Source: Alphaproteobacteria bacterium
GTDB taxonomy: Bacteria > Pseudomonadota > Alphaproteobacteria > Sphingomonadales > JAKSBY01
DNA length: 45,310 bases
NCBI GenBank assembly: GCA_021774625.1
Contig: JAJFIV010000018.1
Span: 1-45,310 of the forward strand
Direction: 5' to 3'
In this document: piece after piece, positions 7,312 through 40,665 of the stretch
Layout: every line of letters begins with the position of its first letter
How positions within the stretch are numbered: position 1 is the first letter of the stretch
Made by a program: the position numbers and the translations under genes
Notes under the pieces: model-generated
What the model saw: only the letters and a program-made list of their open reading frames with translations
Told to the model about the DNA's origin: nothing
The model's database searches: none

Positions 7312-7379
7312 ATTACCCTGTTACAGGTTACACAATTTCGTTGCAAACGCACGACAGAATTTTACGAAGGGGCAGGCTG

Positions 7380-8456: not shown

Positions 8457-8516
8457 TTCCGTGTATTTCGACTTTGCTCAAGATGAACGGAAGTGATGAA
8501 TATTAGCAAGTAAACA

Positions 8517-8614
8517 CCGTTCGGGCTGAGTGAGGCGGAGTCTCGTATCGAAGTCCGGGGATGGCTCCACCCTTCGATACACCTTTGCTGCGCAAAGGCA
8601 CTCAGGGTGAACGG
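8517..8614. repeat. 98-bp palindromic intergenic repeat, copy 1
   Basis: Starts CCGTTCGGGCTGAG and ends CTCAGGGTGAACGG, so its ends are near-complementary; internal segments (TCGTATCGAAGT... and CCTTCGATAC, then CCTTTGC-TGC-GCAAAGG) also pair. An inverted copy of exactly the same length is at 20528-20625. The core resembles the TTCG-GGCTGAG / CTCAG-GGTGAACG intergenic palindromes common in alphaproteobacteria. It sits between hppD and hmgA and would fold in the message. Confidence 0.8.
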
Positions 8615-8650
8615 AATGACCGGTTGCAAATGAATGAAGGAGGGTAACAT

Positions 8651-9796: not shown

Positions 9797-9846
9797 CCGC
9801 AACGTTATTCTATCGATAACTTATCTTATTCTATAAGGAACCTACT

Positions 9847-10833: not shown

Positions 10834-10859
10834 CAATCATGGATGACCAAAGGATAAAA

Positions 10860-11969
10860 ATGATCAATAAGCCCCAGCCTCATGCAGGCGTGATGCAGAT
10901 CGCACAATATCAGCCCGGCGAATCGGCGCTGGAAGGCCAGAGCCGGATCATCAAACTGGCGTCGAATGAATCGCCTCTGGGCGCCTCGCCGCGTGTGAAA
11001 GAGGCGATCCTGGCCCATCTTGAGACGCCGGAGCGCTATCCGGATGGCGCGGCAAAGGAGTTGCGGCAAGCGATTGCCGCCGCACAGGGCCTCAAATCAT
11101 CGGAAATTGTTACCGGCAACGGCTCGGAACAAATCATTCAGCTTCTCACCCGTGCTTATGCCGGGCCGGGGGATGAGGTTATTCAGACGGAATACGGCTT
11201 TCTGGTTTACCGGATCGCCGCCATGGCGGCGGGGGCGAAAATCCTGTCCGCCAAAGATAAGAATTTCACCGCCGATGTGGATGCCATTCTGGCCCTGGTC
11301 ACCGACAGGACCAAAATTGTCTTTATCGCCAATCCGAACAATCCCACCGGCACGCATATTCCGGCCTCAGAAATGGCGCGGCTGCGGCAAAGACTGCCGT
11401 CCCATGTTCTTTTGGTGATTGACGCCGCCTATGCGGAATATGTAACCGATGAAGCCTATTCCGATGGCGCGGATTTGGTGAAGGCCGCCATCGACAGCGG
11501 GGCGGACAATGTGGTCATGACCCGGACATTTTCAAAAATTTACGGCCTTGCCAGCATGCGTATCGGCTGGGCTTACCTGCCGGAAAGCATCGCCGGTGCG
11601 ATCAATCGGATCCGCGAAGTCTTCAACGTCACATCGCTTTCCCAGGCAGCCGGCATTGTCGCCGTGCAGGATCAGGACCATATCCGGAAGGCCAAGGCTT
11701 TTAACGCCGAATGGCTGCCGAAAGTCACGCACGCGCTGGAGGATATGGGCATCCCGGTCCTGCCGAGCCAGGGCAATTTCATCCTTGCCTGTTTTGCCGG
11801 CGGTGAAGCCGAGAGTGAGGCGGCCGACGCTCACCTGCGCGCCGATGGCATCATCGTTCGCCCCGTTGGCGGTTACGGCCTCCCTGACTGCCTCCGCATC
11901 ACCATCGGCACTGAAGCCGAAAATGAAGCCCTGATCAACAGCCTGAAAAACTTCCGGGCCGGGCGATAG
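10860..11969 (+). CDS. HisC-like PLP aminotransferase, probably aromatic/tyrosine aminotransferase
   Basis: A 369-residue fold-type I aminotransferase of the histidinol-phosphate aminotransferase family. The PLP lysine is K226 in TRTFSKIYGLASMRIGW; the IANPNNPTGT motif (cofactor Asn) and VIDAAYAEY (cofactor Asp/Tyr) precede it. Members of this family often accept tyrosine and phenylalanine. As the fourth gene of the homogentisate operon it most likely makes 4-hydroxyphenylpyruvate from tyrosine rather than serving histidine synthesis. I prefer the ATG at 10860 (AAAGGA five bases upstream) to the ATG at 10839, which lacks a binding site. A degenerate palindromic repeat follows directly. Confidence 0.85.
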   Translation: MINKPQPHAGVMQIAQYQPGESALEGQSRIIKLASNESPLGASPRVKEAILAHLETPERYPDGAAKELRQAIAAAQGLKSSEIVTGNGSEQIIQLLTRAYAGPGDEVIQTEYGFLVYRIAAMAAGAKILSAKDKNFTADVDAILALVTDRTKIVFIANPNNPTGTHIPASEMARLRQRLPSHVLLVIDAAYAEYVTDEAYSDGADLVKAAIDSGADNVVMTRTFSKIYGLASMRIGWAYLPESIAGAINRIREVFNVTSLSQAAGIVAVQDQDHIRKAKAFNAEWLPKVTHALEDMGIPVLPSQGNFILACFAGGEAESEAADAHLRADGIIVRPVGGYGLPDCLRITIGTEAENEALINSLKNFRAGR

Positions 11970-11976
11970 CCTCCGG

Positions 11977-12077
11977 CCCTTCGATGCGCCTTTGCTTTGC
12001 AAAAACACTCAGGGCGAACGTTATGTGGACTGTAAATGAAGGAAAGCCGTTTGGGCTGAGCTTGTCGAAGCCCGGGG
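11977..12077. repeat. Degenerate pair of palindromic intergenic repeat halves
   Basis: Two half elements related to the 98-bp repeat: 11977-12020 (CCCTTCGATGCGCC...CTCAGGGCGAACG) and 12047-12077 (CCGTTTGGGCTGAGCTTG then TCGAAGCCCGGGG). Their order and orientation differ from the full copies at 8517 and 20528, so this is a rearranged or separate insertion. It marks the end of the tyrosine operon and could act as a processing or termination structure. Confidence 0.65.
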
Positions 12078-12155
12078 CATTGGCCGCGGTCCCGCCTTGT
12101 GAGTATATAAAATAAATTCTATATGATCTCCTGATCAATATCACGGGAGGTGCGC

Positions 12156-12851
12156 ATGGACAACCATACAGACCGGATGCCGCTCAGGATCGTTATCGGC
12201 ACCAAAACCTATTCAAGCTGGTCATTAAGGGGATGGCTGGCGATTGCCCATACGGGACTTTCGTTCACCGAACACAAGCTTGCCCTGGACACGCCGGAAT
12301 TTTTTGATCAGATCGGTGACCTCAGTCCGACGCGCTGCGTTCCAGTTCTGCTTCACGGAGATCGGAAAATCTGGGATTCACTGGCTATCATCGATTATTG
12401 CGCGCGCCTTGCGCCTGAGATGAACTGGTGGCCGGATGACCTCGCGGCCTATGGTCATGCCCGCAGCATCACCGCGGAAATGCATAGCGGGTTTATGGCG
12501 TTGCGCCGCTATGCGCCAATGAATTTTCGCGGCCGCTGGAGCGGGCTGTCCCTCAACCCGCCCGTCGCCCGCGACGTTCAGCGCATTGACCAGATCTGGC
12601 AGGAATGCCGTGCGGCATCCGCCGGCGCAGGAAATTTCCTGTTCGGCCCCTTTGGCGCGGCCGACATGATGTATGCCCCGGTCGCCAGCCGTTTTGCGAC
12701 TTATGATATTGCCGCAAGTCCTGCGTCAAAGCGCTATATGGAGGCTGTTCTTGCCCACCCGCTGGTGGCCCGCTGGGCGAATGCGGCCCGGCGCGAAAAG
12801 CAGGAGGTCATACAGGATGAGTTGCCCAAAGATATCAAAAGCCTGGGATGA
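12156..12851 (+). CDS. Glutathione S-transferase family protein
   Basis: A 231-residue cytoplasmic protein with a thioredoxin-like N-terminal GST domain (TKTYSSWSLRGWLAI carries the catalytic Ser region; the cis-Pro is in RCVPVLL; WDSLAIIDYC is the glutathione gamma-Glu site) and an all-helical C-terminal domain (about 90-210). The ATG at 12156 has GGGAGG five bases upstream. Although it lies after the homogentisate operon, its active-site motif is not the SSCSWRVRIAL type of maleylacetoacetate isomerase, and it seems to have its own A+T-rich promoter region (12095-12140). Substrate is unknown. Confidence 0.88.
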   Translation: MDNHTDRMPLRIVIGTKTYSSWSLRGWLAIAHTGLSFTEHKLALDTPEFFDQIGDLSPTRCVPVLLHGDRKIWDSLAIIDYCARLAPEMNWWPDDLAAYGHARSITAEMHSGFMALRRYAPMNFRGRWSGLSLNPPVARDVQRIDQIWQECRAASAGAGNFLFGPFGAADMMYAPVASRFATYDIAASPASKRYMEAVLAHPLVARWANAARREKQEVIQDELPKDIKSLG

Positions 12852-26287: not shown

Positions 26288-27292
26288 TCAGGATTCCAGG
26301 ATCTGCCGCACCTTGAGATAGTGCAGGCTGAACAGGTTATTTTCATCCGTCCAGAACTTCATGGCGTCGAAACCGCCGCGGCGCGCCAGTTCCTGAAACT
26401 CCTCAATACTGTATTTGCAGGAATTCTCGGTATGGATGGTTTCACCCCTGCTAAAGTGGAACTGCGCGCCGGCGACCATCACGTTTTGATCTTTCAGGCT
26501 TTCCAGATGCATTTCGATGCGCCCGCACTCTTCATTGTAAAAGGCCTTATGAGCGAAAGCGTCAAGTTCGAAAGTGCCCTGCAGTTCATTATTGATGTGA
26601 CGCAGCAGATTGAGGTTGAACGCCGCGGTGACGCCTTTTTTGTCGTTATAGGCGGCATGTAGAATGGCCGGGTCTTTCTTGAGGTCGACGCCGATCAGGA
26701 ATTCACCGCCGGGGCCGAGGGTTTTCGCGGCATTTTTCAGGAATTCCACTGCTTCCGCCGGCGTAAAGTTGCCGATGGTGGAACCGGGGAAAAAGCCAAC
26801 GCGTTTACCATGGCTATGGTCCCGCGGTTCTGGCAGGGTCATGGTCTGGCTATAGTCGGCGCAGACCGCAATCACTTCGACCTCCGGGTAGTCAACCGCA
26901 AGCTCTTCCGCCGCCGCCCGCAGATGATCCCGCGAAATATCGATGGGAATATAGGCCAGCGGGCGGTCAAGGGCCTCGAGAAGAACACGGACTTTTTCAC
27001 TCGCGCCGGAGCCAAATTCGATCAGTTCGGTGCGGGGGCCCATCAGCGCGGCAATTTCACCGCTGCGTTCGGTCAGAATCTTGATCTCGGTGCGGGTCGG
27101 ATAATATTCGTCCAGCCGGCAGATTTCCTCGAACAGTTCGGAGCCGCGCCGGTCATAGAAAAACTTGCTCGGAATGCTTTTCTGCGGTCTGGCAAGACCG
27201 GCCAGAACAGTATCGACAAAGCTTTCCGCCGTGGGTTCCAGATCAATGAACCCGCTGAGCCCGCGATTTTCTTGTTTTAGAGATTGTTTCAT
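26288..27292 (-). CDS. egtD: L-histidine N-alpha-methyltransferase (ergothioneine synthesis)
   Basis: A 334-residue SAM-dependent methyltransferase that trimethylates histidine to hercynine. Family landmarks are SIPSKFFYDRRGSELFEEIC near the start, LIEFGSGASEKVRVLL for SAM (about 80-95), VGFFPGSTIGNF in the centre and NNLFSLHYLKVRQ near the end. The start codon at 27292 overlaps the egtB stop as ATGA and has AAGGACTT upstream, so the genes are translationally coupled; longer starts lie inside egtB. The pair makes hercynine and then its S-conjugate with a thiol. Confidence 0.96.
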   Translation of the reverse strand: MKQSLKQENRGLSGFIDLEPTAESFVDTVLAGLARPQKSIPSKFFYDRRGSELFEEICRLDEYYPTRTEIKILTERSGEIAALMGPRTELIEFGSGASEKVRVLLEALDRPLAYIPIDISRDHLRAAAEELAVDYPEVEVIAVCADYSQTMTLPEPRDHSHGKRVGFFPGSTIGNFTPAEAVEFLKNAAKTLGPGGEFLIGVDLKKDPAILHAAYNDKKGVTAAFNLNLLRHINNELQGTFELDAFAHKAFYNEECGRIEMHLESLKDQNVMVAGAQFHFSRGETIHTENSCKYSIEEFQELARRGGFDAMKFWTDENNLFSLHYLKVRQILES

Positions 27293-28596
27293 AAGTCCTT
27301 TGCCAGCCTTATGCCGGTGAATTGCCATTGGGAGTGCGGGAAAAAGAAATTACGGTAGGTGGGGCGGACATGGCCGGCGGGCGTCACGCACGAACCGCCC
27401 CGCAGCACAAACTGGTTGCACATGAATTTGCCGTTATATTCGCCGATGGCGCCGGGTGCTGGTTTGAAACGCGGATAGGGGGCGAAGGCGGTCGCCGTCC
27501 ATTCCCACACATCGCCGAACAGTTGTTGAAGTCTGTTGCCAGCAGTGGCTTTGCCGGCCACGGCCGGATGATAGCGGCCATTTCCGAGGTCATTAACGGC
27601 GCCTGTGGTGCCGGCTGCGGCAAGGGCAAGCTCCAGTTCGGCCTCCCGCGGCAGACGGGCGCCGGCCCAGGTGGCAAACGCGTCGGCTTCATAATAACTG
27701 AGATGACTGGCCGGCTCATCAAAATTGACCGGCTGTTCACCGAACAGGGTGAAGACCTGCCAGCCGCCGTCCTTTTCCCGCCAATACAGGGGGGCATGAC
27801 GCTCTTCCGCCTGAATTTGCGCCCAGGCGTCGGACAGCCACAGCGCCGGATTTTTATAACCGCCGTCTACCATAAAGGCGAGATAATCGCCATTGGTCAC
27901 GGGGCGGGACGCAAGGGAAAAAGCGTTCAGGTAGGTTTTATGCCTTGGGCCTTCGCAGTCAAAGGCGAAACCATCGCCCGCATGGCCAATTTCATAAAGA
28001 CCCTCGGCAAACGCAACCCATTCCATATCCGGCGCTTTGCGCACCTCCTTCGGGTAAGGGGATTTATAGGCCGGTTTCAGCGGGTTGCAGGATAGAACAT
28101 GCTTGATGTCCGTCAGCAGCAGTTCCTGATGCTGTTCCTCGTGATGACACCCCAGTTCGATCAGGCCGGCGATGGTGCGCCAGTGCTTCCCGCCGGCAAC
28201 CTTGCCGACCAATTCTTGAACAGCAGCCGTGACATGGCCGCGGTAGGCCATAATTTCGGATAATGGCGGGCGGGATAAAAGCCCCCGATGCGGCCTTGGA
28301 TGGCGCGGCCCTTCGGCCTCATAATAGGAATTGAACAGAAAATGATAATCGGGGTCGAAAATTTTGTAGTCCGGATCAAAAACCTTCAGGATGAAGGTCT
28401 CATGGAACCATGTGGTATGCGCCAGATGCCATTTTGTCGGGCTGGCCTCCTCCATCGACTGAACAACCATATCTTCGGCGGACAGCGGTTTGACGAGTTT
28501 TTCCGTTAAAATGCGGACGGCGGAAAATCGAAAAAGACTTTCTTCCGCATTAAGCAGATGAGGGTCGATCGGCAGATGGTGTGGAGATAAAGGCAC
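27289..28596 (-). CDS. egtB: Hercynine oxygenase / sulfoxide synthase (ergothioneine synthesis)
   Basis: A 435-residue non-haem iron enzyme that joins hercynine to a thiol (gamma-glutamylcysteine or cysteine) as the sulfoxide. The N-terminal DinB-like domain carries the iron motif HX3HXE at H152, H156 and E158 and an earlier His in KWHLAHTTWF (H60). The C-terminal FGE-sulfatase-like domain (about 190-435) has FGDVWEWT and VLRGGSCVTP. Start is a GTG at 28596 that gives the family N-terminus. No egtA, egtC or egtE gene is nearby, so the thiol donor and the final C-S lyase are undefined here; a cysteine-using EgtB is possible. Confidence 0.95.
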   Translation of the reverse strand: MPLSPHHLPIDPHLLNAEESLFRFSAVRILTEKLVKPLSAEDMVVQSMEEASPTKWHLAHTTWFHETFILKVFDPDYKIFDPDYHFLFNSYYEAEGPRHPRPHRGLLSRPPLSEIMAYRGHVTAAVQELVGKVAGGKHWRTIAGLIELGCHHEEQHQELLLTDIKHVLSCNPLKPAYKSPYPKEVRKAPDMEWVAFAEGLYEIGHAGDGFAFDCEGPRHKTYLNAFSLASRPVTNGDYLAFMVDGGYKNPALWLSDAWAQIQAEERHAPLYWREKDGGWQVFTLFGEQPVNFDEPASHLSYYEADAFATWAGARLPREAELELALAAAGTTGAVNDLGNGRYHPAVAGKATAGNRLQQLFGDVWEWTATAFAPYPRFKPAPGAIGEYNGKFMCNQFVLRGGSCVTPAGHVRPTYRNFFFPHSQWQFTGIRLAKDL

Positions 28597-28793: not shown

Positions 28794-29738
28794 GTGCTTC
28801 TGAAGTTTCCAGCCGTCCTTGCCGCAGGGCTTTTACTGGCGAATTGTGCGCCGGAATTTGCCGGCTCTGGCCCGGCCATCCTCCTATCCCCTGCGCTGAA
28901 CGCTGACCATGCTCTTATGGCGGATGAAACACGTTTATCCGTCACCCGGTGGCAGCCTGACGAGACGATGGAGAGTCAAGCGGTCGTGATAGCGCTTCAT
29001 GGCTTCAATGACTATCGGCATACCTTTTCCCTGACCGGACCTTATTTTGCCGAAGATGGTATAATTACCTATGCCTATGATCAGAGGGGGTTTGGCGAAA
29101 GCAATACGCCGGGTGTCTGGCCGGGGGAAAAGGCGCTGGTTGACGACCTTGTCGCCTTTATCGGTCTGGTCAGGAAAAAACACCCGGACCAGCCGCTTTT
29201 TCTGCTTGGCGAGAGCATGGGCGCGGCAGTTGCTCTGTTGGCGGCTGCCGGCGAACGCACGGAAAATGCGGTGTGCGGTGTGATCCTGTCAGCTCCGGCG
29301 GTATGGGGCTGGTCCAACCTGAACCTTTTCTACGCCCTTACGCTGGGGGTTACGGCGCGCATTGCCCCCAACTGGAAACTGACCGGCAGGGGGCTGGATA
29401 TTCTGCCGTCGGACAATATTGAAATGCTAAGGGAAATGGCGCGGGACCCCCTCGTCATCAAGGAAACCAGAACAGACTCGATCTATGGACTGGTCGACCT
29501 GATGGACAACGCCGCCAGGGCGGCTTCCCGGATCCGGACGCCCGCTTTGATCCTGTATGGAGAAAAAGATCAGGTCGTTCCGCGCAAACCCATTGAAAAA
29601 CTACGGAAGCAACTCAGATCAGAACATAAATTTATTTTGTATCCAGAGGGTTATCACCTTTTATTGAGAGATTTAAATAGAAAGAAAGTCTGGCGGGATA
29701 TTTTACATTTTATACGGGAAAATCAGCACTGTATGTAG
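28794..29738 (+). CDS. Alpha/beta hydrolase, monoacylglycerol-lipase-like, probable lipoprotein
   Basis: A 314-residue serine hydrolase. The nucleophile is S141 in LGESMGAAV; the oxyanion strand is ALHGFNDYRHTF; the acid lies in ILYGEKDQVVP; the His is in EGYHLLLRD. This pattern resembles monoacylglycerol lipase and lysophospholipase. The N-terminus (MLLKFPAVLAAGLLLANC) looks like a lipoprotein signal with C18, although Asn at -1 departs from the usual lipobox. Start is GTG with GAGGGGG well placed. It is divergent from egtB and upstream of the exosortase-type cluster, but A+T content rises at its 3' end and a 140-bp gap follows, so membership in that cluster is doubtful. Confidence 0.85.
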   Translation: MLLKFPAVLAAGLLLANCAPEFAGSGPAILLSPALNADHALMADETRLSVTRWQPDETMESQAVVIALHGFNDYRHTFSLTGPYFAEDGIITYAYDQRGFGESNTPGVWPGEKALVDDLVAFIGLVRKKHPDQPLFLLGESMGAAVALLAAAGERTENAVCGVILSAPAVWGWSNLNLFYALTLGVTARIAPNWKLTGRGLDILPSDNIEMLREMARDPLVIKETRTDSIYGLVDLMDNAARAASRIRTPALILYGEKDQVVPRKPIEKLRKQLRSEHKFILYPEGYHLLLRDLNRKKVWRDILHFIRENQHCM

Positions 29739-29878: not shown

Positions 29879-30661
29879 ATGTCAACGACTAGCACGTTAA
29901 AGCCAGCAACTCAGAAAAAACCGCCTTCTTATCAGGACAACAGCCTCTCGGATCATTATTTTCGGTGGTTTTCATCAACCATTGCCGATACGCCTGAAAA
30001 GGTCGCTCAGGCCCATCGTTTGCGCTACGATGTCTATTGTGAAGAAACCGGGTTCGAACCGAAGGAGCTTAATCCCGACAGGCAGGAAAAAGACCCGTAT
30101 GATGCGCATTCGGCCCATGCGGTTCTGACCCATCTTCCGACCGATTCCGTTATCGGTACGCTCAGGATTGTCCTCCCCATACCCGGTGCGCCGGGCGCTG
30201 ACCTGCCGGCCCGGCTGGCCAGCAGGATGCTGGATGAACTTCCTTTTCTGCCAAAAGAAACGACCGGTGAAATTTCTCGTTTTACCGTCGCGAAAAAATT
30301 CCGCATGCGCAAGGAGGATACTTTATATCCGGCGGTCTATGAGGATCAGGGCGAAAAGGCCGGGGATGTCCGGCGTGTCCTGCCGCATATCGCTCTTGGT
30401 CTGATGCAAACGGTTTTCGAGATTACGCTGCGCCATAAATTAACACATCTTTGCGCGATCATCGACCCGGCGTTATTGAGGCTGGTTCGCCGACTGGGCC
30501 TGGAATTCCATAAAGTAGGCGATCTCATAGAATTTCACGGCTGGCGTCAGCCGGTTTACTGCGACAATCAGGAAATTCTGCAGACGGTTTATAATAATCA
30601 CCGCGATGTCTGGGACGTCATCACGTGCCGCCATCAAGACATTCTGGATGGGCTCTATTAA
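29879..30661 (+). CDS. PEP-CTERM/exosortase system-associated acyltransferase (LuxI-like fold)
   Basis: A 260-residue protein of the acyltransferase family found with exosortase/PEP-CTERM loci, distantly related to GNAT and acyl-homoserine-lactone synthases. Visible landmarks are HRLRYDVYCEETGFE (about 37-51), GTLRIVLPIP, EISRFTVAKKFR and a C-terminal HKLTHLCAIIDPALLRLVRRLG. There is no signal peptide or membrane segment. I chose the ATG at 29879 (GGAG six bases before) over an in-frame TTG at 29867. The acyl donor and acceptor are unknown. A ThiF/nitroreductase fusion gene follows after 41 bp on the same strand, which suggests they act together. Confidence 0.85.
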   Translation: MSTTSTLKPATQKKPPSYQDNSLSDHYFRWFSSTIADTPEKVAQAHRLRYDVYCEETGFEPKELNPDRQEKDPYDAHSAHAVLTHLPTDSVIGTLRIVLPIPGAPGADLPARLASRMLDELPFLPKETTGEISRFTVAKKFRMRKEDTLYPAVYEDQGEKAGDVRRVLPHIALGLMQTVFEITLRHKLTHLCAIIDPALLRLVRRLGLEFHKVGDLIEFHGWRQPVYCDNQEILQTVYNNHRDVWDVITCRHQDILDGLY

Positions 30662-30702
30662 ACGCGGCAGGGATATCTGACCGGGCTAGAGCATGGGTTT
30701 AC

Positions 30703-32730
30703 ATGAAATACCAGCATAAATATCCCTATCGGGAGCCGGCGAGCCGCCCTGAAAAGCCTTATTTCAACTATGACGAGGCTTTTTCGCGCAATATTGGCTG
30801 GGTAACCGAGGGCGAGCAACAGAAACTAAAGGAAAAACGGATTGCTATTGCCGGGATGGGAGGCGTTGGCGGCGTGCATCTGTTGACCCTGGCCCGCATG
30901 GGATTCTCCAAATTCCATATTGCCGATCTCGATAATTTTGAACTGGCCAATTTCAACCGTCAGGTCGGCGCAACAATCGAGACGATAGACAAACCCAAGG
31001 CGGCTGTCCTCGAAAAAATGGCGAAGGATATTAATCCGGAGGCGGAAATTCAGGTCTTTCCCGATGGCGTGAATGACGGAAATGTCGAAGAATTTTTAGC
31101 CGGCGTCGATCTTTATGTGGATGGTTTTGATTTTTTTGTGCTCGATATCCGCGCCAAAGTGTTTGCTAAATGCCACGAGAAAGGCATTCCGGCCATCACG
31201 GCGGCGCCGGTGGGCACCGGGTCGGCCTATTTAATTTTCATGCCGGACGGCATGAGCTTTGAGCAATATTTTCGCCTTAACGGGTTTTCCGAGCGCAAAA
31301 AATATGTGAATTTTCTGCTTGGGCTGACCCCGGCCATGCTGCAACGCTCTTATCTTCAGGATAAAACCCGGGTTGATTTTGCTGCGAAGCGCGGGCCTTC
31401 AACGCCGATGGCCTGTCAGATTTGTGCCGGAGTGACGGCGACGGAAGCGGTGAAAATTCTGCTCGGCCGCGGTAAAATCTATCCTGCGCCCCATTATCAT
31501 CATTTTGATCCATACCGCTCGCGATATGTTGTGGGCAAATTATGGCTCGGCAACCGCAATCCACTCCAGACGGTCAAGCGTCACCTGGCCTACCGCTTGT
31601 TTGACCGGCTGGCGCTTCAGGCGCGCCCCAAAGAGGAGGAAATTAGCCCAACCCTGCGGCCTGTGGAACATATTCTCAATCTTGCCCGCTGGGCGCCGAG
31701 CGGCGATAATATTCAGCCTTGGCGTTTTGAAATCGTCTCTGATTTTCAGGTCCGGATTCAGTGTGATCTGACGGCCAATGACAGTGTTTACGAATTCGAT
31801 AACGCACGGCCGACCAGGCTGGCTCTGGGGATGCTGCTCGAGACAATGAAAATTGCCGCGACCCGTTTTGGCTGGGCCGGGCAGTGGATTACCGGCGAGC
31901 GGGACGGCAGGATCACGGTCGAGTATTATTTCCGGGCCGTGAAAGACGTTGCCGCGGACCCGCTGGCGGATTTCATTCCTGTGCGCTCCACCGACCGTCG
32001 CCGCTACCGGCAATTGAAGCTGAGCGAAGAACAGAAAGCGGTGCTTGCAGACGCACTGGGGCCGGACTTGACTGTCCGGTGGTTCGAAAGCGTTCGGGAA
32101 CGCACCCGCATTGCCAGGCTCAGCAGCAAGGCAACGGCGATCCGGCTGACCATACCGGAATGTCATACCGTTCATCAAAAAATTATCGACTGGTCGTCGC
32201 ACTTCAGTCGGAGCGGCATTCCCGCCGCCGCCGTCGGACTGGATCCGGCAACGACCATCCTGATGAAATGGCTGATGAAAGACTGGCGGCGCATGAAATT
32301 TATGAACAGAACCCTGGGCGGGGCTTTGTTGGCGGCTTTCCAGCTGGATGTCATTCCCGGTTTGCTGAACGCGGCGCAATTTTCCATTCACCGGACCTCC
32401 GGGCTGACCGGGCCCGAGGCACTGGATGATATTTTGCGGACCGGAGCGGCGCTGCAGAGATTTTGGCTCACGGCTGCCCGCTATGGGCTTGTTCTTCAGC
32501 CGAATTTCGCCCCCCTGTGTTTCGCGCATTACGGCCGGACCGGCCATGAATTTACCGCTGATCCGCGCCAGATGGAAAAAGCCGGAAACGTCGCCGCGCT
32601 CCTGGAAAGAACAGTTGGCGGCGAACAGGGCAATCCTGTCTTTCTGGGCCGCATCGGATATCCTTTGCACAGGTCTGCGCCTGCGCGCTCCCTTCGTTTA
32701 TCGCTTGACCGTCTGACCGCAAGCCGATAG
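30703..32730 (+). CDS. ThiF/E1-like adenylyltransferase fused to a nitroreductase-like domain
   Basis: A 675-residue two-domain protein. Residues about 25-285 are an E1/ThiF/MoeB-like Rossmann domain: nucleotide loop GMGGVGG at 51-57, acidic residue in ADLDNFELANFNRQ (75-87) and the Arg finger at 86. Only one CxxC (C238, C241) is visible, so the usual four-Cys zinc site seems incomplete. Residues about 318-675 are a flavin nitroreductase-like domain beginning LARWAPSGDNIQPW. E1 domains adenylate a carboxyl terminus or small acid; nitroreductases oxidise or reduce with FMN. The ATG at 30703 is the first good start, though its binding site is weak. Neighbours are an acyltransferase before and a polyprenyl-phosphate sugar transferase after. 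Substrate unknown. Confidence 0.88.
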   Translation: MKYQHKYPYREPASRPEKPYFNYDEAFSRNIGWVTEGEQQKLKEKRIAIAGMGGVGGVHLLTLARMGFSKFHIADLDNFELANFNRQVGATIETIDKPKAAVLEKMAKDINPEAEIQVFPDGVNDGNVEEFLAGVDLYVDGFDFFVLDIRAKVFAKCHEKGIPAITAAPVGTGSAYLIFMPDGMSFEQYFRLNGFSERKKYVNFLLGLTPAMLQRSYLQDKTRVDFAAKRGPSTPMACQICAGVTATEAVKILLGRGKIYPAPHYHHFDPYRSRYVVGKLWLGNRNPLQTVKRHLAYRLFDRLALQARPKEEEISPTLRPVEHILNLARWAPSGDNIQPWRFEIVSDFQVRIQCDLTANDSVYEFDNARPTRLALGMLLETMKIAATRFGWAGQWITGERDGRITVEYYFRAVKDVAADPLADFIPVRSTDRRRYRQLKLSEEQKAVLADALGPDLTVRWFESVRERTRIARLSSKATAIRLTIPECHTVHQKIIDWSSHFSRSGIPAAAVGLDPATTILMKWLMKDWRRMKFMNRTLGGALLAAFQLDVIPGLLNAAQFSIHRTSGLTGPEALDDILRTGAALQRFWLTAARYGLVLQPNFAPLCFAHYGRTGHEFTADPRQMEKAGNVAALLERTVGGEQGNPVFLGRIGYPLHRSAPARSLRLSLDRLTASR

Positions 32731-32874
32731 CAACGGCAGGTGGAATCGATGTATTGATTTCCTGTCACGCCCAACGTCTTATGCTTTAATAAAAATTAAT
32801 ACTAAAATAGGATCATCCGGGCTGATGAAAAGCTTAGGGATTGAGGGGCGCGGACGCGCTCATATACAATTGGT

Positions 32875-34266
32875 ATGATCAGGCTGTTCAAACATTATGT
32901 TCCGAAATCACTGCTCTATCTGGGGGTGATAGAGTCCCTTTTGCTGATGGGCTCGATTGAGGCAGCGGTTCATATCCGGAGCTTTCAGGCGGGAATCAAT
33001 CCGGGGCCGCTGATGGTCAGAATTCCCGAAATACTGACTTATGTGGTCGTGCTTTATGTGACAATGCTGTCCGTCGGGCTCTATCGCAGTGTGACCGCGC
33101 GCGATCCGAAACTTAGTTTTCTCCGGCTCGCGATCGCTCAGTTTTTAGCCCTATTTGTCATGTCGCTGATTTTCTTTGCGTTTCCTGATGTGGCAATCTG
33201 GCGCAGCATCATCATCATCGCGCTGCCGCTTGCCTTTATCATGATCATGATTGTCCGGGCATTCTTTGTCCGGGTGACGGATCTTAACCGTTTCCGCCGG
33301 CGTATTCTTGTTGTGGGGGCCGGCGACCGAGCCAAAAGACTGCTGGAGTTTCAGAAAAACGCAGAGGGCGCGGGCTTCGAGATTCTCGGTTGTGTTTCAC
33401 CAGACAGTGAAAAGGCCAAAATAGACAATGCCCTGTGCGGCGAGGCCGTCGGTCCGTTGCCGGATTATGTCGAGCAGAATGATATTGACGAAATTGTGCT
33501 GGCGCTGGAGGAACGGCGCGGCGCCTTGCCGATCCATGATCTTTTGACCTGTAAAATCAAGGGGGTGAAGGTTTCCGATTTTGCGACTTTTTTCGAGCGG
33601 GAGCGGGGTTATGTGGATATTGATACCCTGCAGCCGAGCTGGCTTGTTTTTTCCGACGGGTTTTTAGGCGGCAAGCTGTGGGAACAGATATTCAAAAGGC
33701 TGTTTGATATTTCCGCCAGCCTTGCTGTTCTGGTGTTTACACTGCCAATTCTTTTGGTCACCGCGCTCGCCGTCAGGTTTACCAGCAAAGGCCCTGTCCT
33801 TTATCGGCAGGAGCGGGTGGGCCGTTTGGGGAAAACCTATCATGTCCTGAAATTCCGCAGTATGAGGACTGATGCGGAAAAGGACGGTGTTCCGCAATGG
33901 GCGGATGAAGACGATCCCCGCGTCACCAAAGTCGGAAAAATTATCCGCGCCTCACGGATTGACGAAATTCCCCAGATATTCAATGTTTTGAAAGGGGATA
34001 TGAGTTTTGTCGGGCCGCGCCCGGAAAGGCCTTATTTCGTCGACAGCCTGGCGGCGCAAATTCCGTTTTATAATGAACGCCACCACGTGAAGCCGGGGAT
34101 CACCGGCTGGGCGCAAATCAACCACCCCTATGGCGCTTCCGTGGAAGATGCAAAAAGCAAGCTTGAATATGACCTCTATTATATCAAGAATTATACGATA
34201 TTCTTGGATTTTCTGATTCTGATTCAAACGGCCCGTGTCGTTTTGTGGCCGGACGGTGTCAGATAA
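32875..34266 (+). CDS. Polyprenyl-phosphate sugar-1-phosphate transferase of XrtA/PEP-CTERM loci
   Basis: A 463-residue membrane protein that loads the first sugar phosphate on undecaprenyl phosphate for exopolysaccharide synthesis. Residues about 10-125 contain four hydrophobic segments; about 135-250 form a nucleotide-binding-like domain (RRRILVVGAGDRAK). A further membrane helix near 280-300 precedes the bacterial sugar transferase domain (KGPVLYRQERVG, KFRSMRTDAEKDG, SFVGPRPERP, KPGITGWAQIN). The arrangement matches the XrtA-associated (TIGR03013-like) branch, which lies next to PrsK/PrsR. Spacing to prsK is 42 bp. The sugar is not predictable. Confidence 0.9.
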   Translation: MIRLFKHYVPKSLLYLGVIESLLLMGSIEAAVHIRSFQAGINPGPLMVRIPEILTYVVVLYVTMLSVGLYRSVTARDPKLSFLRLAIAQFLALFVMSLIFFAFPDVAIWRSIIIIALPLAFIMIMIVRAFFVRVTDLNRFRRRILVVGAGDRAKRLLEFQKNAEGAGFEILGCVSPDSEKAKIDNALCGEAVGPLPDYVEQNDIDEIVLALEERRGALPIHDLLTCKIKGVKVSDFATFFERERGYVDIDTLQPSWLVFSDGFLGGKLWEQIFKRLFDISASLAVLVFTLPILLVTALAVRFTSKGPVLYRQERVGRLGKTYHVLKFRSMRTDAEKDGVPQWADEDDPRVTKVGKIIRASRIDEIPQIFNVLKGDMSFVGPRPERPYFVDSLAAQIPFYNERHHVKPGITGWAQINHPYGASVEDAKSKLEYDLYYIKNYTIFLDFLILIQTARVVLWPDGVR

Positions 34267-34308: not shown

Positions 34309-36420
34309 GTGACAGAATTTGGCAATATTGGTTTTGTTATTTTTGCAGCGGCCAGCGTCGCCTTCGTCTTTTTGACGGCTATTCTGGTTATCAGCTGGAA
34401 GCGCGGGCCGGCGGGCGTCTGGATGATTGCGGCCTCGTCGGCGACGTTTGTGTGGGCGGCCACATCCGCATTTTCATATGTTTATCCGCAAACGGCTGGC
34501 CCGCTTGCCTCTCCGTTGGAAACGATCCGGACACTGATCTGGGGCGCTTTTTTTGTGTTTCTTATTTCCCGCTCCTGGTCCCGGGACAATAGACCGCACA
34601 GCGGCCTGATGGCGGTTCTGATCGCAGGAGCCGCTTTTTCAGTCCTGCTTTTCGCTCTGGATATTGCTGAATATTCCGGCTGGCTGCCGGCTCCCGGGTT
34701 GTCGGAAACTATTGCCCAATCCTATTTCGGTTTGCGGCTGGCCCTGGCAATTTGCGGGCTTGCCCTGGTGGAAAACTTTTACCGCAACACGGATTCAGGC
34801 AATCGCTGGGGCGTCCGGATGCTGTGTCTCGGCATTGGCGGCATGTTTGGCTACGATGTGTATCTTTATGCCGACGCCATGCTCTTTCACGAGATTTCCG
34901 ATGATTTTCTGACCGCGCGCGGGGCCATCATCACGATCATTGCGCCACTGATTGCCGTATCCGCCGCACGGAATCCGACATGGAAGCTCAATGTTTTTAT
35001 CTCGCGCCGCGCCGTTTTTCATACGGTTTCCTTTGTCGGCAGCGGTGTTTATCTGATCGTTATGGCGGGCGCCGGCTATTATCTGAGGGAGGTTGGCGGC
35101 GAGTGGGGCACCCTGCTTCAGGTGAGCCTGTTTTTTGGCACGATTCTTTTGCTTATCATTGTTTTATTTTCAGGACGGGCACGGGCGCAAACGCGGGTTT
35201 TTTTCAACAAGCATTTTTTCAACTATAATTATGACTACCGGGAAGAATGGCTGCGTTTTATCCGGACGGTTTCCTCGACCGCGAGCGGCGCCACGCTGCA
35301 GGAAAGGGTGGTGCAGGCAATTTGCGATATATTTGACAGTCCCGGCGGACATTTGTGGCTGGCCGGTGGACAAGGCGCTTTTAAACCTGTGGCCCGCTGG
35401 AATTTTCAGCATGATATGAAAGATGCGGAACCCACTGACAGCCCGTTCGTTAAAAAAATGTCAGACCTGCAGTGGGTTATCAATCTGGACGATTTGCGGG
35501 AAGACCCTGGCGAATATCAAAACATGGCCGCGCCGAAATGGGTGGAGGCGGAACCCAGGGCCTGGCTTGCAGTGCCATTAATTCACCATGATCAGCTGAT
35601 AGGGTTCATTGTTCTGGAGCGGCCGCGGGCGGCGAAAACGCTTGATTGGGAGGATTTCGACCTGCTGAAAACGGTCGGCCGGCAGGCCGGAAGCTATATC
35701 GCGGAACAACTGGCGGAAAAAGCTCTGGTGGAGTCCCAGCAATTCGAGGCCTTTAACCAGAGATTCGCATTTGTCATGCATGATATCAAGAATTTGGTGA
35801 GCCAGTTGTCGCTGCTCCTCAGTAATGCCGAGAAATATGCTGATAATCCGGAGTTCCAGAAGGACATGCTCGCCACAATACAGGGATCGGTTGATAAAAT
35901 GAACATGCTTTTGGGGCGGCTGCATGATCAGACGGACCGGGGGGCGAACCTGGAGGATGTTAATCTCTCCCGCCTGTTGCAGCAAATCACTGGTGATTTT
36001 GCGCGTATTTTTCCTTCCATTGAACTGATGGATGAAGAGGGAAATGTCTGGGTTACCGGAGAAACGCAGCGGTTGCAGGCGGCGCTGGTCCATTTGATCC
36101 AGAATGCCATTGATGCCGTAGACGGGCAGGGCGAGGTTTCCGTATCCCTGGCTATTGACCAGGGCAACGCCATCGCCAATATTAGGGATACCGGTCCGGG
36201 CATGGATGAGGAGTTTGTCCGGACAGAGCTATTCAGGCCTTTCCGCACGACAAAAGATGCGGGCTATGGAATCGGCGCCTATGAAAGCCGTCAGATTATT
36301 ACCGACTTTGGCGGCAAGATGCAGGTCGAAAGCACCGTCGGACAAGGAACAAACATAACGCTTAAATTGCCGCTTTCGAAAAGAAGCATGGCGCAAAGCG
36401 GCACGGCGGGGGACGAATGA
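34309..36420 (+). CDS. prsK: PEP-CTERM system membrane histidine kinase PrsK
   Basis: A 703-residue kinase. The first half has about eight hydrophobic segments (residues 5-290), followed by a GAF-like domain (about 320-465). The phosphoacceptor is H491 in FVMHDIKNLVSQL. The ATPase domain has the N box (HLIQNAIDAVDG), the G1 box (DTGPGMDEEF) and YGIGAYESRQII. This architecture is that of PrsK, the sensor of XrtA-type exosortase loci. Start is GTG at 34309. The stop overlaps the prsR start as ATGA, so kinase and regulator are coupled. The signal sensed is unknown. Confidence 0.92.
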   Translation: MTEFGNIGFVIFAAASVAFVFLTAILVISWKRGPAGVWMIAASSATFVWAATSAFSYVYPQTAGPLASPLETIRTLIWGAFFVFLISRSWSRDNRPHSGLMAVLIAGAAFSVLLFALDIAEYSGWLPAPGLSETIAQSYFGLRLALAICGLALVENFYRNTDSGNRWGVRMLCLGIGGMFGYDVYLYADAMLFHEISDDFLTARGAIITIIAPLIAVSAARNPTWKLNVFISRRAVFHTVSFVGSGVYLIVMAGAGYYLREVGGEWGTLLQVSLFFGTILLLIIVLFSGRARAQTRVFFNKHFFNYNYDYREEWLRFIRTVSSTASGATLQERVVQAICDIFDSPGGHLWLAGGQGAFKPVARWNFQHDMKDAEPTDSPFVKKMSDLQWVINLDDLREDPGEYQNMAAPKWVEAEPRAWLAVPLIHHDQLIGFIVLERPRAAKTLDWEDFDLLKTVGRQAGSYIAEQLAEKALVESQQFEAFNQRFAFVMHDIKNLVSQLSLLLSNAEKYADNPEFQKDMLATIQGSVDKMNMLLGRLHDQTDRGANLEDVNLSRLLQQITGDFARIFPSIELMDEEGNVWVTGETQRLQAALVHLIQNAIDAVDGQGEVSVSLAIDQGNAIANIRDTGPGMDEEFVRTELFRPFRTTKDAGYGIGAYESRQIITDFGGKMQVESTVGQGTNITLKLPLSKRSMAQSGTAGDE

Positions 36421-37772
36421 GTAAATCGCGGCCAACCCTTCTTATCGTGGAAGACGATACCGGGCTTCAGCGGCAGTTAAAATGGAGCTTCGAGGATTAC
36501 GAGCTTCTGTTCGCGAAGACACGCAAACAGGCGTTGGCGCATGTGCGTTCGCATGAGCCCAAGGTTGTGACCCTCGATCTCGGATTGCCGCCCGACCCGG
36601 ACGGCACCAGCGAAGGCTTTGCCGCCCTCGAAGAAATACTTAAACTGGCGCCGGAGACCAAAATCATTGTGGCTTCGGGTCATGGCGAAAGGTCGAGCGC
36701 ACTCAAGGCTATTGCCATGGGAGCCTATGATTTTTATCAAAAACCCATAAATGCCGATGAACTGGCCCTCATTATCCAGCGGGCCTTCCATCTCTATGAC
36801 ATTGAGACGGAAAACCGCCTGCTGGCCAATTCCCTTGCCCGCTCGCCGCTTGAGGGAATCATCACATCGGCGGATAATATGGTCAAGGTCTGCCAGATGG
36901 TCGAACGGGTGGCTCCCACCGATGCCAGTGTGATGCTGCTGGGCGGCAGCGGAACCGGCAAGGAACTGCTTGCAAAAGCCCTGCATGGCCTGAGCGCGCG
37001 AAAAGATAAACCCTTCGTGGCCATCAATTGCGCAGCCATTCCGGAAACCCTGCTGGAAAGCGAGCTGTTCGGTCATGAAAAAGGGGCTTTCACCGGGGCT
37101 ATCAGTCAGACAATCGGTAAAATAGAAAGCGCGCAGGGCGGGACTTTTTTCCTGGACGAAGTCGGCGATATTCCGCTGGCGCTTCAGGTGAAACTGTTGC
37201 GCTTTTTGCAGGAAAGAGTGATAGAGCGCATCGGCGGCCGCAAAGAAATCCCGGTCGATGTCCGGATCGTCAGCGCAACTCATCAGAATCTTGAGAAACT
37301 GATTGCCAGCGGTATTTTTCGGGAAGATATCTATTACCGTCTAGCGGAAATCACCATCAGTATCCCGCCCCTGAGTGAACGAACGGGTGATGCGGCCCTG
37401 CTGGCCCACAGTTTTTTAAACAGGTTTAATGAGGAAGGCCGGAAATCTGTCAAAGGCTTTACCCCGGACGCCCTGACTGCCATTTCCAGCTATCCGTGGC
37501 CTGGCAATGTCCGGCAGTTGGAGAACAAGATTAAGCGAGCCGTTATCATGGCGGAAAATAACTGGGTATCGGCGGCTGATCTCGATCTCGCGGTCAAGGA
37601 TGAAGAAAAGCTTGTTCTGAATTTAAAACAGGTGCGGGAGGAGGCGGATAAACGCGCCATCCGCATGGCGCTGGCCCAAACCGAGGGCAATGTCTCCCAA
37701 TCCGCAAAGCTGCTTGGCGTCAGCCGGCCGACTTTCTATGACTTGATCAAACAATATGATATAAAAGTATAA
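36417..37772 (+). CDS. prsR: PEP-CTERM-box response regulator PrsR (sigma-54 activator)
   Basis: A 451-residue NtrC-type regulator. The receiver domain (1-130) has acidic VEDD and the phosphoacceptor D54 in VVTLDLGLPP. The AAA+ domain (about 150-390) has the Walker A motif GGSGTGKE near 176-183 and the sigma-54 contact loop GAFTGA at 223-228. The C-terminal Fis-type helix-turn-helix is NVSQSAKLLGVSRPTFYDLI. It should activate sigma-54 promoters of PEP-CTERM or exopolysaccharide genes in response to PrsK. I could not find a convincing -24/-12 promoter in the nearby intergenic regions. Confidence 0.94.
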   Translation: MSKSRPTLLIVEDDTGLQRQLKWSFEDYELLFAKTRKQALAHVRSHEPKVVTLDLGLPPDPDGTSEGFAALEEILKLAPETKIIVASGHGERSSALKAIAMGAYDFYQKPINADELALIIQRAFHLYDIETENRLLANSLARSPLEGIITSADNMVKVCQMVERVAPTDASVMLLGGSGTGKELLAKALHGLSARKDKPFVAINCAAIPETLLESELFGHEKGAFTGAISQTIGKIESAQGGTFFLDEVGDIPLALQVKLLRFLQERVIERIGGRKEIPVDVRIVSATHQNLEKLIASGIFREDIYYRLAEITISIPPLSERTGDAALLAHSFLNRFNEEGRKSVKGFTPDALTAISSYPWPGNVRQLENKIKRAVIMAENNWVSAADLDLAVKDEEKLVLNLKQVREEADKRAIRMALAQTEGNVSQSAKLLGVSRPTFYDLIKQYDIKV

Positions 37773-37851
37773 AATAACATAATTGGGCCACGTTCCCATA
37801 ATTGTATTTAGGCAAGAGGATCACCGGCTCTGCCGGGAAAAAGAGGTTGAA

Positions 37852-40665
37852 ATGATGAAAATTCGCAATTCACTCACTGGGCTGCTGGCCACGGCCGCGC
37901 TTTCGTTTTTTTTAACGCTCCAGCCGGCCCCGAGTTATGCCGTTGATTCCGAAAAATCGGCATCTTATCTCGACTCCGCTCGGGAATTTTTTGATGAGGG
38001 TAAATATCAGGCGGCGATCATTGAATTGAGAAATTCCCTGAAAGCCGACGCCAACAATGTGGATGCCAGGCTGCTGATGGCGGAAATTTATCTGCTTGCC
38101 GGCCAGGGCTCGGCTGCGCAAACGGAAATCGAAACGGCCCGCAATCGCGGTGCGGGAAAAGATGCCACGGCTCTCAAGATGGCCAGGGCCTATCTGCTGC
38201 TGCGAAGATATGATGATGCGTTGGCGGAACTGGACGGTGCGGATTTGCCGGCAGCCGATATCGCCGAAGGCTATCTGGTTCGCGGCGATGTATACATGGT
38301 GTCAAACGACCGTGAAAAAGCGGAAGAATCATATCTGGAAGCGGAAAAACTCGATCCGAATTTTCATATGGCAAAGATTGCCCTTTCCAGGGCTGCTCTA
38401 GCGGACCGGGATTTTGAGACGGCGAATCGCAAAATTGATGAAGCCATTGCCTTGAAACCCGGTGACAGCATGGCTCATCTCACCAAAGGCCTGATTGCCA
38501 GGGCGAATCGCCAGACGGAAGCGGCAATTTCCAGTTATTCCACGGCATTGGAACTGAACCCCAATAATTTGCTGGCGCTGATTGAGCGGGCCGGCGCCCT
38601 GATCGATGCCGGACGGCAGGATGAGGCGCAGACGGATGTGGATACGGCCTACCGGCTGTCGCCGGATAATCCCATGGCTCACTATTTATCAGCCCTCCTG
38701 CTTGCCAGGGCCGCAGATTATGAGGGTGCGGATGCCAAGCTGGTTGAGGCCAGCGCGCTGGTTGACAGTTTTGTGCCCGCAGCGCTGGTGAAAGGCTATG
38801 TCGCCTATCAACTGGGAAATCTTGAACAGGCGGCAACATATCTGTCGCGCTTTGTGGATGCTTTTCCCAACCATGCCCTGGCGCGGCAGGCTTACGGCGC
38901 CACTTTGCTGCGTCAGCAGGATGCCGTCGGTGCGGTGACGGTTTTAAAGCCCCTTGTTGAACAGGGTGCCGAGGATGCGCGGTCCTACGCTCTGTTGGGG
39001 GCTGCCCAGATGCAAACCGGGGATTATGAGGCAGGCACCCGGAATGTGGAGCTCGCGATTGAAAAAGCGCCTGATTTGACCAGCCTGAGAACGCAGCTGG
39101 CCGTTGGCAGGCTAGCACTTGGCGATTCGGGAAGCGCGATTGAAAATCTGGAAGCCGTGGTTGCCGACGACCCCAAACAATTAAGGGCGGCAATCATGCT
39201 GGCGCTGATCGAACGGCGTCAGGGCAATTATGATAAGGCGATGGAAGCCGCTGAAAGCATCATTGAAGAGGCGCCGGAAAATCCGGTTGGACATAATATC
39301 AGGGGGGCAATCCTGATTAATTTAAATCAGCTGGAAGAGGCAAGAGCGGAGTTTGAGGCGGCGCTGGAAATCAATCAGAACTTCTTCCCGGCCCGATCCA
39401 ATATTGCACAGCTGGAAAGGTTTGAGGGCCGTCTTGATGAAGCAGAGCGGCAATATCGCTATATCCTGAATGAAGACCGTTCAAACACGCAGGCTCTGGT
39501 CGCCATGGCGCAACTGGCGAGCCAGCGAGGGCAAAATACCGAAGTGATCGAGTGGCTGGAGCGGGCGGTTGCCTCGGCGCCGCAATCGTCCAATGTGCGA
39601 TCCATATTGATCCGCGGCCATCTGCTGAACAAGGAGTTTGCCAAGGCGCGGCAGGCGGCCCAGGATGCGGAACGCGACTTTCCACTGAACACAACGATTT
39701 TAGCCACTGCCGGTCAGGCCTATCTGGCAAGCGAAAGCTATGAGGAAGCCCGTGAATCCTATAGCCGGCTGGTCAGCCAGCAGCCTCAGAATATAGAGGC
39801 GCGGCGTATTTTGGCGCGCACTCAGTGGTCTTTGGGTGAGACCGATGAGGCCCGCGGCACTTTTGTCCGCGCCCTTTCCGACGCGACCGGAAATAACTCT
39901 GCCGGCATCCTGACGGATCTGGTTTCGCTGGAGGCGCAGAGCGGCAATTTTGAAGAGGCTGTTGCCTATGCGACAGACCTGAAAAAGTCCTATCCCAATG
40001 CAAATTATTCCGATCTTCTTTTGGGAAATCTCTATGCCTTTGCAGAACGTTACGACGAAGCGATTGAAGCACTGAATGCGGCCAAAGCCGTTGCGGATAC
40101 GGCACAGGCGCGGATCAGCCTGATTCAGACTTACCGCAAAGCCGGACGGACTGAGAATGCGATTGCCGAGATCGACGACTGGGTCAAGGGATCACCGGTG
40201 ACACCGAATGTAAGGGTAATCGCCGCTGATTTGTATCTTTCGCTGAAGCGTTATCAGGAGGCGCTGGAACAATATGAGCAGATTCAGAAAGCGGTGGGCG
40301 ATAATGCGATCATTCTTAACAATCTCGCATGGGTCTATCATGAAATTGGCAGTGACAAGGCGATAGAAACGGCCGAGAAAGCCTATCAGATGTCGCCAGC
40401 CACACTGCAGATTGCCGATACCCTGGGCTGGATTCTCGTCAACACAGACAAGGATATTGACCGCGGTTTGCAGCTTCTGCAGACCGCCGCCGACGGCATG
40501 GCGGATGACGGCGATGTCCGGTACCATCTCGCGGTTGCCTATGAAAAGCACGGGCGCATGGAAGAAGCGCGCCAGCAATACAGGCTTGCAGTCAATATTG
40601 GGGATGCCTTCGATAATTACGAAACGGCAAAAGAACGCCTACTGGAAATTTCCGCGCAGAACTGA
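37852..40665 (+). CDS. prsT: PEP-CTERM system TPR-repeat protein PrsT
   Basis: A 937-residue exported protein. Residues 1-32 form a signal peptide (basic start, hydrophobic core, ending PSYA). The rest is a near-continuous array of about 20 tetratricopeptide repeats, seen as recurring patterns such as A-x-x-x-Y-x-x-A-L-x-x-N-P-N-N. Its length and partners match PrsT, a periplasmic scaffold of XrtA-type exopolysaccharide export loci. The ATG at 37852 has AGAGG five bases upstream; a longer frame from 37783 would bury the signal peptide. The gap from prsR is 79 bp. Confidence 0.92.
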   Translation: MMKIRNSLTGLLATAALSFFLTLQPAPSYAVDSEKSASYLDSAREFFDEGKYQAAIIELRNSLKADANNVDARLLMAEIYLLAGQGSAAQTEIETARNRGAGKDATALKMARAYLLLRRYDDALAELDGADLPAADIAEGYLVRGDVYMVSNDREKAEESYLEAEKLDPNFHMAKIALSRAALADRDFETANRKIDEAIALKPGDSMAHLTKGLIARANRQTEAAISSYSTALELNPNNLLALIERAGALIDAGRQDEAQTDVDTAYRLSPDNPMAHYLSALLLARAADYEGADAKLVEASALVDSFVPAALVKGYVAYQLGNLEQAATYLSRFVDAFPNHALARQAYGATLLRQQDAVGAVTVLKPLVEQGAEDARSYALLGAAQMQTGDYEAGTRNVELAIEKAPDLTSLRTQLAVGRLALGDSGSAIENLEAVVADDPKQLRAAIMLALIERRQGNYDKAMEAAESIIEEAPENPVGHNIRGAILINLNQLEEARAEFEAALEINQNFFPARSNIAQLERFEGRLDEAERQYRYILNEDRSNTQALVAMAQLASQRGQNTEVIEWLERAVASAPQSSNVRSILIRGHLLNKEFAKARQAAQDAERDFPLNTTILATAGQAYLASESYEEARESYSRLVSQQPQNIEARRILARTQWSLGETDEARGTFVRALSDATGNNSAGILTDLVSLEAQSGNFEEAVAYATDLKKSYPNANYSDLLLGNLYAFAERYDEAIEALNAAKAVADTAQARISLIQTYRKAGRTENAIAEIDDWVKGSPVTPNVRVIAADLYLSLKRYQEALEQYEQIQKAVGDNAIILNNLAWVYHEIGSDKAIETAEKAYQMSPATLQIADTLGWILVNTDKDIDRGLQLLQTAADGMADDGDVRYHLAVAYEKHGRMEEARQQYRLAVNIGDAFDNYETAKERLLEISAQN

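Follow-up and report, generated by a model that had tools for sequence, protein, structure and literature searches.

A predicted oxzAB-type N-acyl oxazolone operon in an alphaproteobacterial XrtA/PEP-CTERM exosortase locus

Known Pathways to N-Acyl Oxazolones and Dehydro-Amino Acids

In Pseudoalteromonas rubra, N-acyl oxazolones are made by OxzA, an N-acyltransferase, and OxzB, a fusion of ThiF and flavin oxidase domains (de Rond et al. 2021, according to the accounts in PMC12856293 and PMC10404671). In the same way, TrzA and TrzS from Mycobacterium and Rhodococcus combine an acyltransferase with a ThiF-flavin fusion and produce N-acyl oxazolones through the tryptazolone pathway (PMC12856293). 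The tyrazolone pathway of M. tuberculosis is a three-protein version, TyzA/TyzC/TyzB (PMC10404671). The steps reported are N-acylation, ATP-dependent cyclisation and O2-dependent desaturation (PMC12856293, PMC10404671). Their obligate order, cyclisation then desaturation, was shown for TrzA/TrzS; TrzA takes short-chain acyl-CoA and tryptophan, and MsAcg is the nearest structure reported for the FMN domain of TrzS (PMC12856293).

Producers of N-acyl dehydrotyrosine carry NasY, ThiF and nitroreductase genes together, and this three-gene set was proposed as their pathway (PMC12479983). An N-acyl amino acid synthase (NAS) was also described beside PEP-CTERM/exosortase genes (Craig et al. 2011, as cited in PMC7293339). 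The word exosortase is absent from three papers on the oxazolone and dehydrotyrosine pathways (PMC12479983, PMC10404671, PMC12856293).

Gene Content of the Locus and Comparison with Described Systems

The window, i.e., the whole stretch of 45,310 nucleotides analysed, carries an acyltransferase gene followed, after a spacer of 41 bp, by a ThiF/nitroreductase fusion gene and then by several genes of the XrtA/PEP-CTERM system (Table 1). The fusion gene is a single open frame of 710 codons, in which a GTG at 30625, overlapping the acyltransferase gene, is a less likely start than the ATG given in the table. An earlier note on this DNA had described three same-strand genes encoding an acyltransferase, an E1-flavin fusion and a sugar-phosphate transferase; their coordinates and strand are confirmed, as are their identities through the TIGR03694, ThiF/nitroreductase and TIGR03013 matches. 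The "acylated, adenylation-activated, oxidised small molecule" that it envisaged fits oxazolone chemistry of the OxzAB/TrzAS type. The pathway was presented there as possibly undescribed, which is not supported, as the same architecture is known as OxzA/OxzB and TrzA/TrzS (PMC10404671, PMC12856293). The pair belongs to an enzyme system whose characterisation is recent, and the XrtA setting adds some interest to it.

Table 1. Features of the locus, and relatives with a stand-alone cyclase.
Feature	Position or loci	Strand	Basis
N-acyl amino acid synthase, OxzA/NAS-like, LuxI/FeeM superfamily	29879..30661	+	ATG 29879, stop 30661; TIGR03694 exosort_acyl
ThiF-flavin oxidase di-domain protein, OxzB-like, predicted oxazolone synthetase	30703..32730	+	ATG 30703; PRK08223
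E1/ThiF adenylating cyclase domain (predicted), residues 21-286	30763..31560	+	invariant residues, TcdA match, ThiF fold
FMN oxidase domain (predicted), nitroreductase superfamily, Acg-like, residues 317-675	31651..32727	+	MsAcg 2ymv fold
XrtA-system polyprenyl glycosylphosphotransferase EpsB_2	32875..34266	+	TIGR03013, 554 bits (cut-off 393)
XrtA/PEP-CTERM histidine kinase PrsK	34309..36420	+	TIGR02916, 733 bits
PEP-CTERM sigma-54 response regulator PrsR	36417..37772	+	TIGR02915, 705 bits
XrtA/PEP-CTERM TPR protein PrsT	37783..40665	+	TIGR02917, 642 bits
Stand-alone PRK08223-type E1 loci, no FMN-oxidase homologue detected in genome	L032-L037, L040, L044, L045		genomes G294, G320, G336, G288, G385, G276, G015, G115, G019

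Kinship to the characterised enzymes was judged via profiles, structures and a protein of a species congeneric with P. rubra, P. luteoviolacea. As for OxzA/OxzB, the acyltransferase gene of the window precedes a single gene for a ThiF-flavin oxidase fusion. A homologous pair occurs in P. luteoviolacea, where a TIGR03694 acyltransferase (125 bits) lies upstream of a fusion 43% identical to the window protein; the window pair differs in that it sits in an alphaproteobacterial XrtA/PEP-CTERM locus. With TrzS, the fusion shares the domain order and an FMN domain whose nearest structure is M. smegmatis Acg (MsAcg, 2ymv; Z 28.2 over 296 residues), but it reaches only 167 bits on the TrzS/Rv1355c family profile NF005901, for a cut-off of 476. 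It is predicted to work like TrzS yet falls outside the narrower TrzS (Rv1355c) family. The three activities of TyzA/TyzC/TyzB are those predicted for the pair, but the ThiF and FMN enzymes, fused in the window, are separate proteins in that system. The dehydrotyrosine gene set also has the same three functions, and Massilia relatives (L093 and L097) stand in the tree of the window protein, with ThiF and FMN domains encoded by adjacent genes in a genus that has a known N-acyl dehydro-amino acid producer; this set differs by its separate genes and by the fact that no cyclic product was observed (PMC12479983). Finally, the window shares with the locus of Craig et al. a NAS adjoining PEP-CTERM/exosortase genes, and differs from it by the cyclase-oxidase step, of which the citing text in PMC7293339 makes no mention.

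The Acyltransferase

The acyltransferase scores 210 bits on TIGR03694, above the curated cut-off of 111.95. Eight of its residues (R49, Y53, E70, D75, R96, E131, S133 and R134) are invariant among 44 homologues and match the catalytic pattern of the LuxI family. Its AlphaFold model (pLDDT 86) has the AHL synthase TofI as top fold match (Z 18.4) and also matches FeeM (2g0b; Z 16.8 over 176 residues). Both the LuxI-type residues and the TofI match would suit a synthase of AHL-type quorum signals. Such a function is nevertheless extremely improbable, considering the FeeM match and the description of the TIGR03694-type family as N-acyl amino acid synthases. Furthermore, AHL synthesis was rejected because the AHL-synthase profiles remain far under their cut-offs (21 bits against 292 for PRK13834 and 20 against 250 for AHserLSynTraI) while TIGR03694 exceeds its own.

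The ThiF-Flavin Fusion

The fusion contains the Pfam domains PF00899 (ThiF, 152 bits) and PF00881 (Nitroreductase, 37.8 bits), scores 434 bits on the E1-like family PRK08223 (cut-off 266) and gives an AlphaFold model with a pLDDT of 91. The ThiF domain retains GxGGVG, D77, N85-R86-Q87, K99, D140 and D143 as invariants among 49 homologues, D143 being a candidate equivalent of D217 of TrzS according to alignment to the E1 family. Its best PDB sequence match (E 3.5e-21) is TcdA, an E1-like enzyme that performs intramolecular cyclisation of a carboxylate on a small group. The nearest E1-fold structures are AclA (9egb; Z 27.6), for which a literature search found nothing, and ThiF (1zfn; Z about 26.5-26.7).

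The fold is also similar to those of MoeB, UBA5, MccB and PaaA, as well as of ThiF itself, which would be compatible with the activation of a ubiquitin-like or peptide substrate leading to a protein conjugate or a peptide natural product. This alternative is highly improbable, the best sequence match being a small-group cyclase. Ubiquitin-like conjugation was rejected because E1 enzymes that activate ubiquitin-like proteins have a catalytic cysteine and a zinc site made of two CxxC pairs, and among the 49 homologues no cysteine is invariant and a single CxxC pair is present; RiPP azole synthesis was rejected because no precursor peptide or azole cyclase was seen.

The invariants of the FMN domain are PSxDNxQ, R428, R432, R481, H491, Q599 and R650, of which R481 and Q599 are candidate equivalents of R540 and Q651 of TrzS that fit by spacing only. 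Three features of oxazolone synthases are present in the window: a LuxI/FeeM-type acyltransferase adjoining a ThiF gene, the adenylation residues and a C-terminally fused Acg-like flavin domain.

Conservation of the Pair

A scan of named genomes yielded more than 500 relatives of the fusion, the best 80 of which were taken for neighbourhood reading. All of these 80 have both the ThiF and the FMN domains. When the window is added, the domains are fused in 59 of the 81 loci and encoded by adjacent genes in the other 22; the E1-flavin fusion, singled out as unusual in the earlier note, is actually the known OxzB/TrzS architecture. A TIGR03694-type synthase lies at 4.5 kb or less in 43 of the best 80. 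Among the remaining loci, ten upstream genes were examined: six are of FeeM type (PF21926); of the other four, two are unrelated genes and two lack any Pfam match. In the protein tree, the window fusion groups with those of L050 and L114 (SH-aLRT 99), both of which have the same gene order.

Within the order, the fusion was found in 19 of 120 genomes. Conservation of the two genes as neighbours, on which the earlier note had staked its proposal beforehand, is borne out by the 17 order neighbourhoods read: all have the fusion, and in 16 it is preceded by the synthase in the same orientation, while in the seventeenth the contig ends first. These neighbourhoods and the loci of the named scan are not independent, since some appear to be the same records (e.g., L141/L050 and L155/L114). 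In a sample of 398 genomes of the phylum, in which presence was defined by profile cut-offs, the E1 type occurs in 16 genomes, the synthase in 31 and both in 14, for 1.2 expected (hypergeometric probability 1e-15 by genome and 9e-10 by genus). In all 14, no more than about 5 kb separates the synthase from the E1 gene, and a fifteenth E1 genome, G350, has a FeeM-like synthase (match to the N-terminal part of PRK14852). The E1 type and the acyltransferase are associated far beyond chance, and the acyltransferase and the fusion form a conserved unit.

The family PRK14852 (NCBIfam NF011425) is also matched by L031, L067, L076, L091, L097, L108 and L112. FeeM-type synthases align with the first ~230 positions of this profile, and the E1 and FMN domains with its middle part. 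This hints at the existence of triple-fusion proteins (synthase, E1 and FMN), although none was seen directly. Four plasmid matches, from Nitratidesulfovibrio (31-32%) and Bdellovibrio, are distant.

Cyclase-Only Variants

Nine of the 16 E1-positive genomes of the phylum have no homologue of the FMN domain (E 1e-5). Most of their stand-alone E1 loci (Table 1) have a TIGR03694 synthase nearby; for example, the E1 gene of L033 is flanked by PrsT and the synthase, alongside an exosortase and a PEP-CTERM protein. As these nine genomes show no detectable FMN partner, the cyclase would have some use without desaturation, and we infer saturated oxazolones as the products of such loci. The published pathways (PMC12856293, PMC10404671, PMC12479983) do not account for this subset.

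Association with the XrtA Locus

The genome of the window has the XrtA/PEP-CTERM system, which makes a polysaccharide coat and directs proteins to the cell surface: besides PrsK, PrsR, PrsT and EpsB_2, a profile search located an exosortase (PF09721, 248 bits) elsewhere, at C7:46504-47250, and 11 PEP-CTERM motifs are present. The link with exosortases suggested in the earlier note holds in one direction, 15 of the 16 E1-positive genomes having an exosortase, but not in the other, as 64 of the 79 exosortase genomes found among the 398 lack the E1. Within the order, an exosortase is present in 18 of the 19 fusion genomes, and the sole exception is 67% complete. The pair is a stable guest of XrtA loci but an optional one, most exosortase genomes lacking it.

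The distance to the exosortase varies: it is about 8 kb from the fusion in L144, L149 and L156, while in several genomes, including that of the window, the pair and the exosortase gene are 45 kb or more apart or on different contigs. EpsB_2, PrsK and PrsR are found downstream, arranged as in the window, in nine of the 17 order neighbourhoods, seven of which also have PrsT, the two others being truncated where the stretch ends. In part of the order (L038, L059, L060, L145-L148 and L150-L153), the gene for a second PrsT-like TPR protein separates the synthase from the fusion.

The earlier note had included the third gene in the pathway; in a pathway of this kind, EpsB_2 would attach or use the acylated product. 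The three genes are indeed adjacent and co-oriented in the window as well as in L141, L151 and L155, where there is no room for another gene between the fusion and EpsB_2. However, EpsB_2 is named for XrtA loci generally, most of the best 80 of the more than 500 relatives have no EpsB_2 near the pair, and in six further relatives that have it, 1.5 to 4 kb of other sequence intervene. A single three-gene pathway is thus very unlikely: EpsB_2 is part of the XrtA exosortase/polysaccharide system and not a step of oxazolone synthesis.

Regarding expression, 15 sigma-54 sites (TGGCAC-N5-TTGCW, at most two mismatches) occur in the window for 27 expected. None lies 5' of the acyltransferase gene or of EpsB_2, and no sign of control by PrsR was seen upstream of the pair. 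A scan of the window for sigma-70 promoters and terminators remained at chance level.

Predicted Pathway and Product

As judged from sequences and structural models, the region 29879-32730 is very probably an oxzAB-type N-acyl oxazolone operon lying within an XrtA/PEP-CTERM exosortase-exopolysaccharide locus. Its acyltransferase would take a fatty acyl group from acyl-ACP or acyl-CoA and link it to the alpha-amino group of a probably aromatic amino acid. The ThiF domain would then adenylate the carboxylate of the N-acyl amino acid, and attack of the amide oxygen on this adenylated carboxylate would close the five-membered oxazolone ring, with neither carrier protein nor thioester. The FMN domain would use O2 to introduce an exocyclic C=C bond in the oxazolone, whose ring may open in water to yield N-acyl dehydro-amino acids comparable to thalassotalic or kyonggic acids.

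This oxazolone reading is supported by the agreement between family profiles, TrzS/OxzB domain order and invariant residues, by the TcdA match, the MsAcg-like FMN fold and the LuxI pattern joined to a FeeM fold. It is also supported by the linkage of the pair in relatives, by the P. luteoviolacea and Massilia loci, and by the conserved spot before EpsB_2-PrsK-PrsR-PrsT. The nine E1-positive genomes devoid of an FMN partner and the remoteness of the exosortase in several genomes count against it.

The end product could instead be an open-chain N-acyl dehydro-amino acid of the thalassotalic, kyonggic or stieleriacine type, with an oxazolone that is transient or never released. This alternative deserves consideration while being the less probable one. 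Oxazolones were not found in the dehydrotyrosine producers that carry the NasY, ThiF and nitroreductase genes (PMC12479983), and they do break down by hydrolysis into the desaturated acyl amino acid (PMC12856293). However, the OxzB and TrzS fusions give oxazolones in published assays (PMC12856293, PMC10404671), and owing to this same hydrolysis, such unstable compounds are easily missed by normal extraction.

According to the oxazolone reading, the N-acyl amino acid linked to the exosortase is probably converted to a reactive oxazolone. For one group of exosortase loci, the acyltransferase would thus pass from "product unknown" to a specific, testable chemical prediction, and two literatures become connected: that on N-acyl oxazolones and that on the exosortase/PEP-CTERM system with its N-acyl amino acid synthase. 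A more speculative proposal, which we consider unlikely, is that the exosortase locus makes an electrophilic N-acyl oxazolone that would modify the surface or act as an activated donor of acyl groups, acylating exopolysaccharide or sorted PEP-CTERM proteins. If true, acylation of amino or hydroxyl targets would explain why exosortases are accompanied by N-acyl amino acid synthases, and the loci with synthase and cyclase but no oxidase would be a stripped-down form of the same idea.

Other genes of the window deserve mention. A 4-hydroxyphenylpyruvate dioxygenase gene (TIGR01263, 407 bits) heads a co-oriented run at 7341-12851, about 17 kb from the pair. By eye, this run resembles tyrosine/homogentisate catabolism; it may be irrelevant, but tyrosine is a candidate substrate. 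Upstream of the pair, the gene at 28794-29738 encodes an alpha/beta hydrolase (Hydrolase_4) with a lipoprotein-like N-terminus; it was rejected as a ring-opening partner because no homologue lies near the loci of any of the best 80 of the more than 500 relatives. The ergothioneine genes egtD and egtB (26288-28596, minus strand) are also located just upstream of the pair, and an EgtD-like gene is found 5' of the pair in L114/L155.
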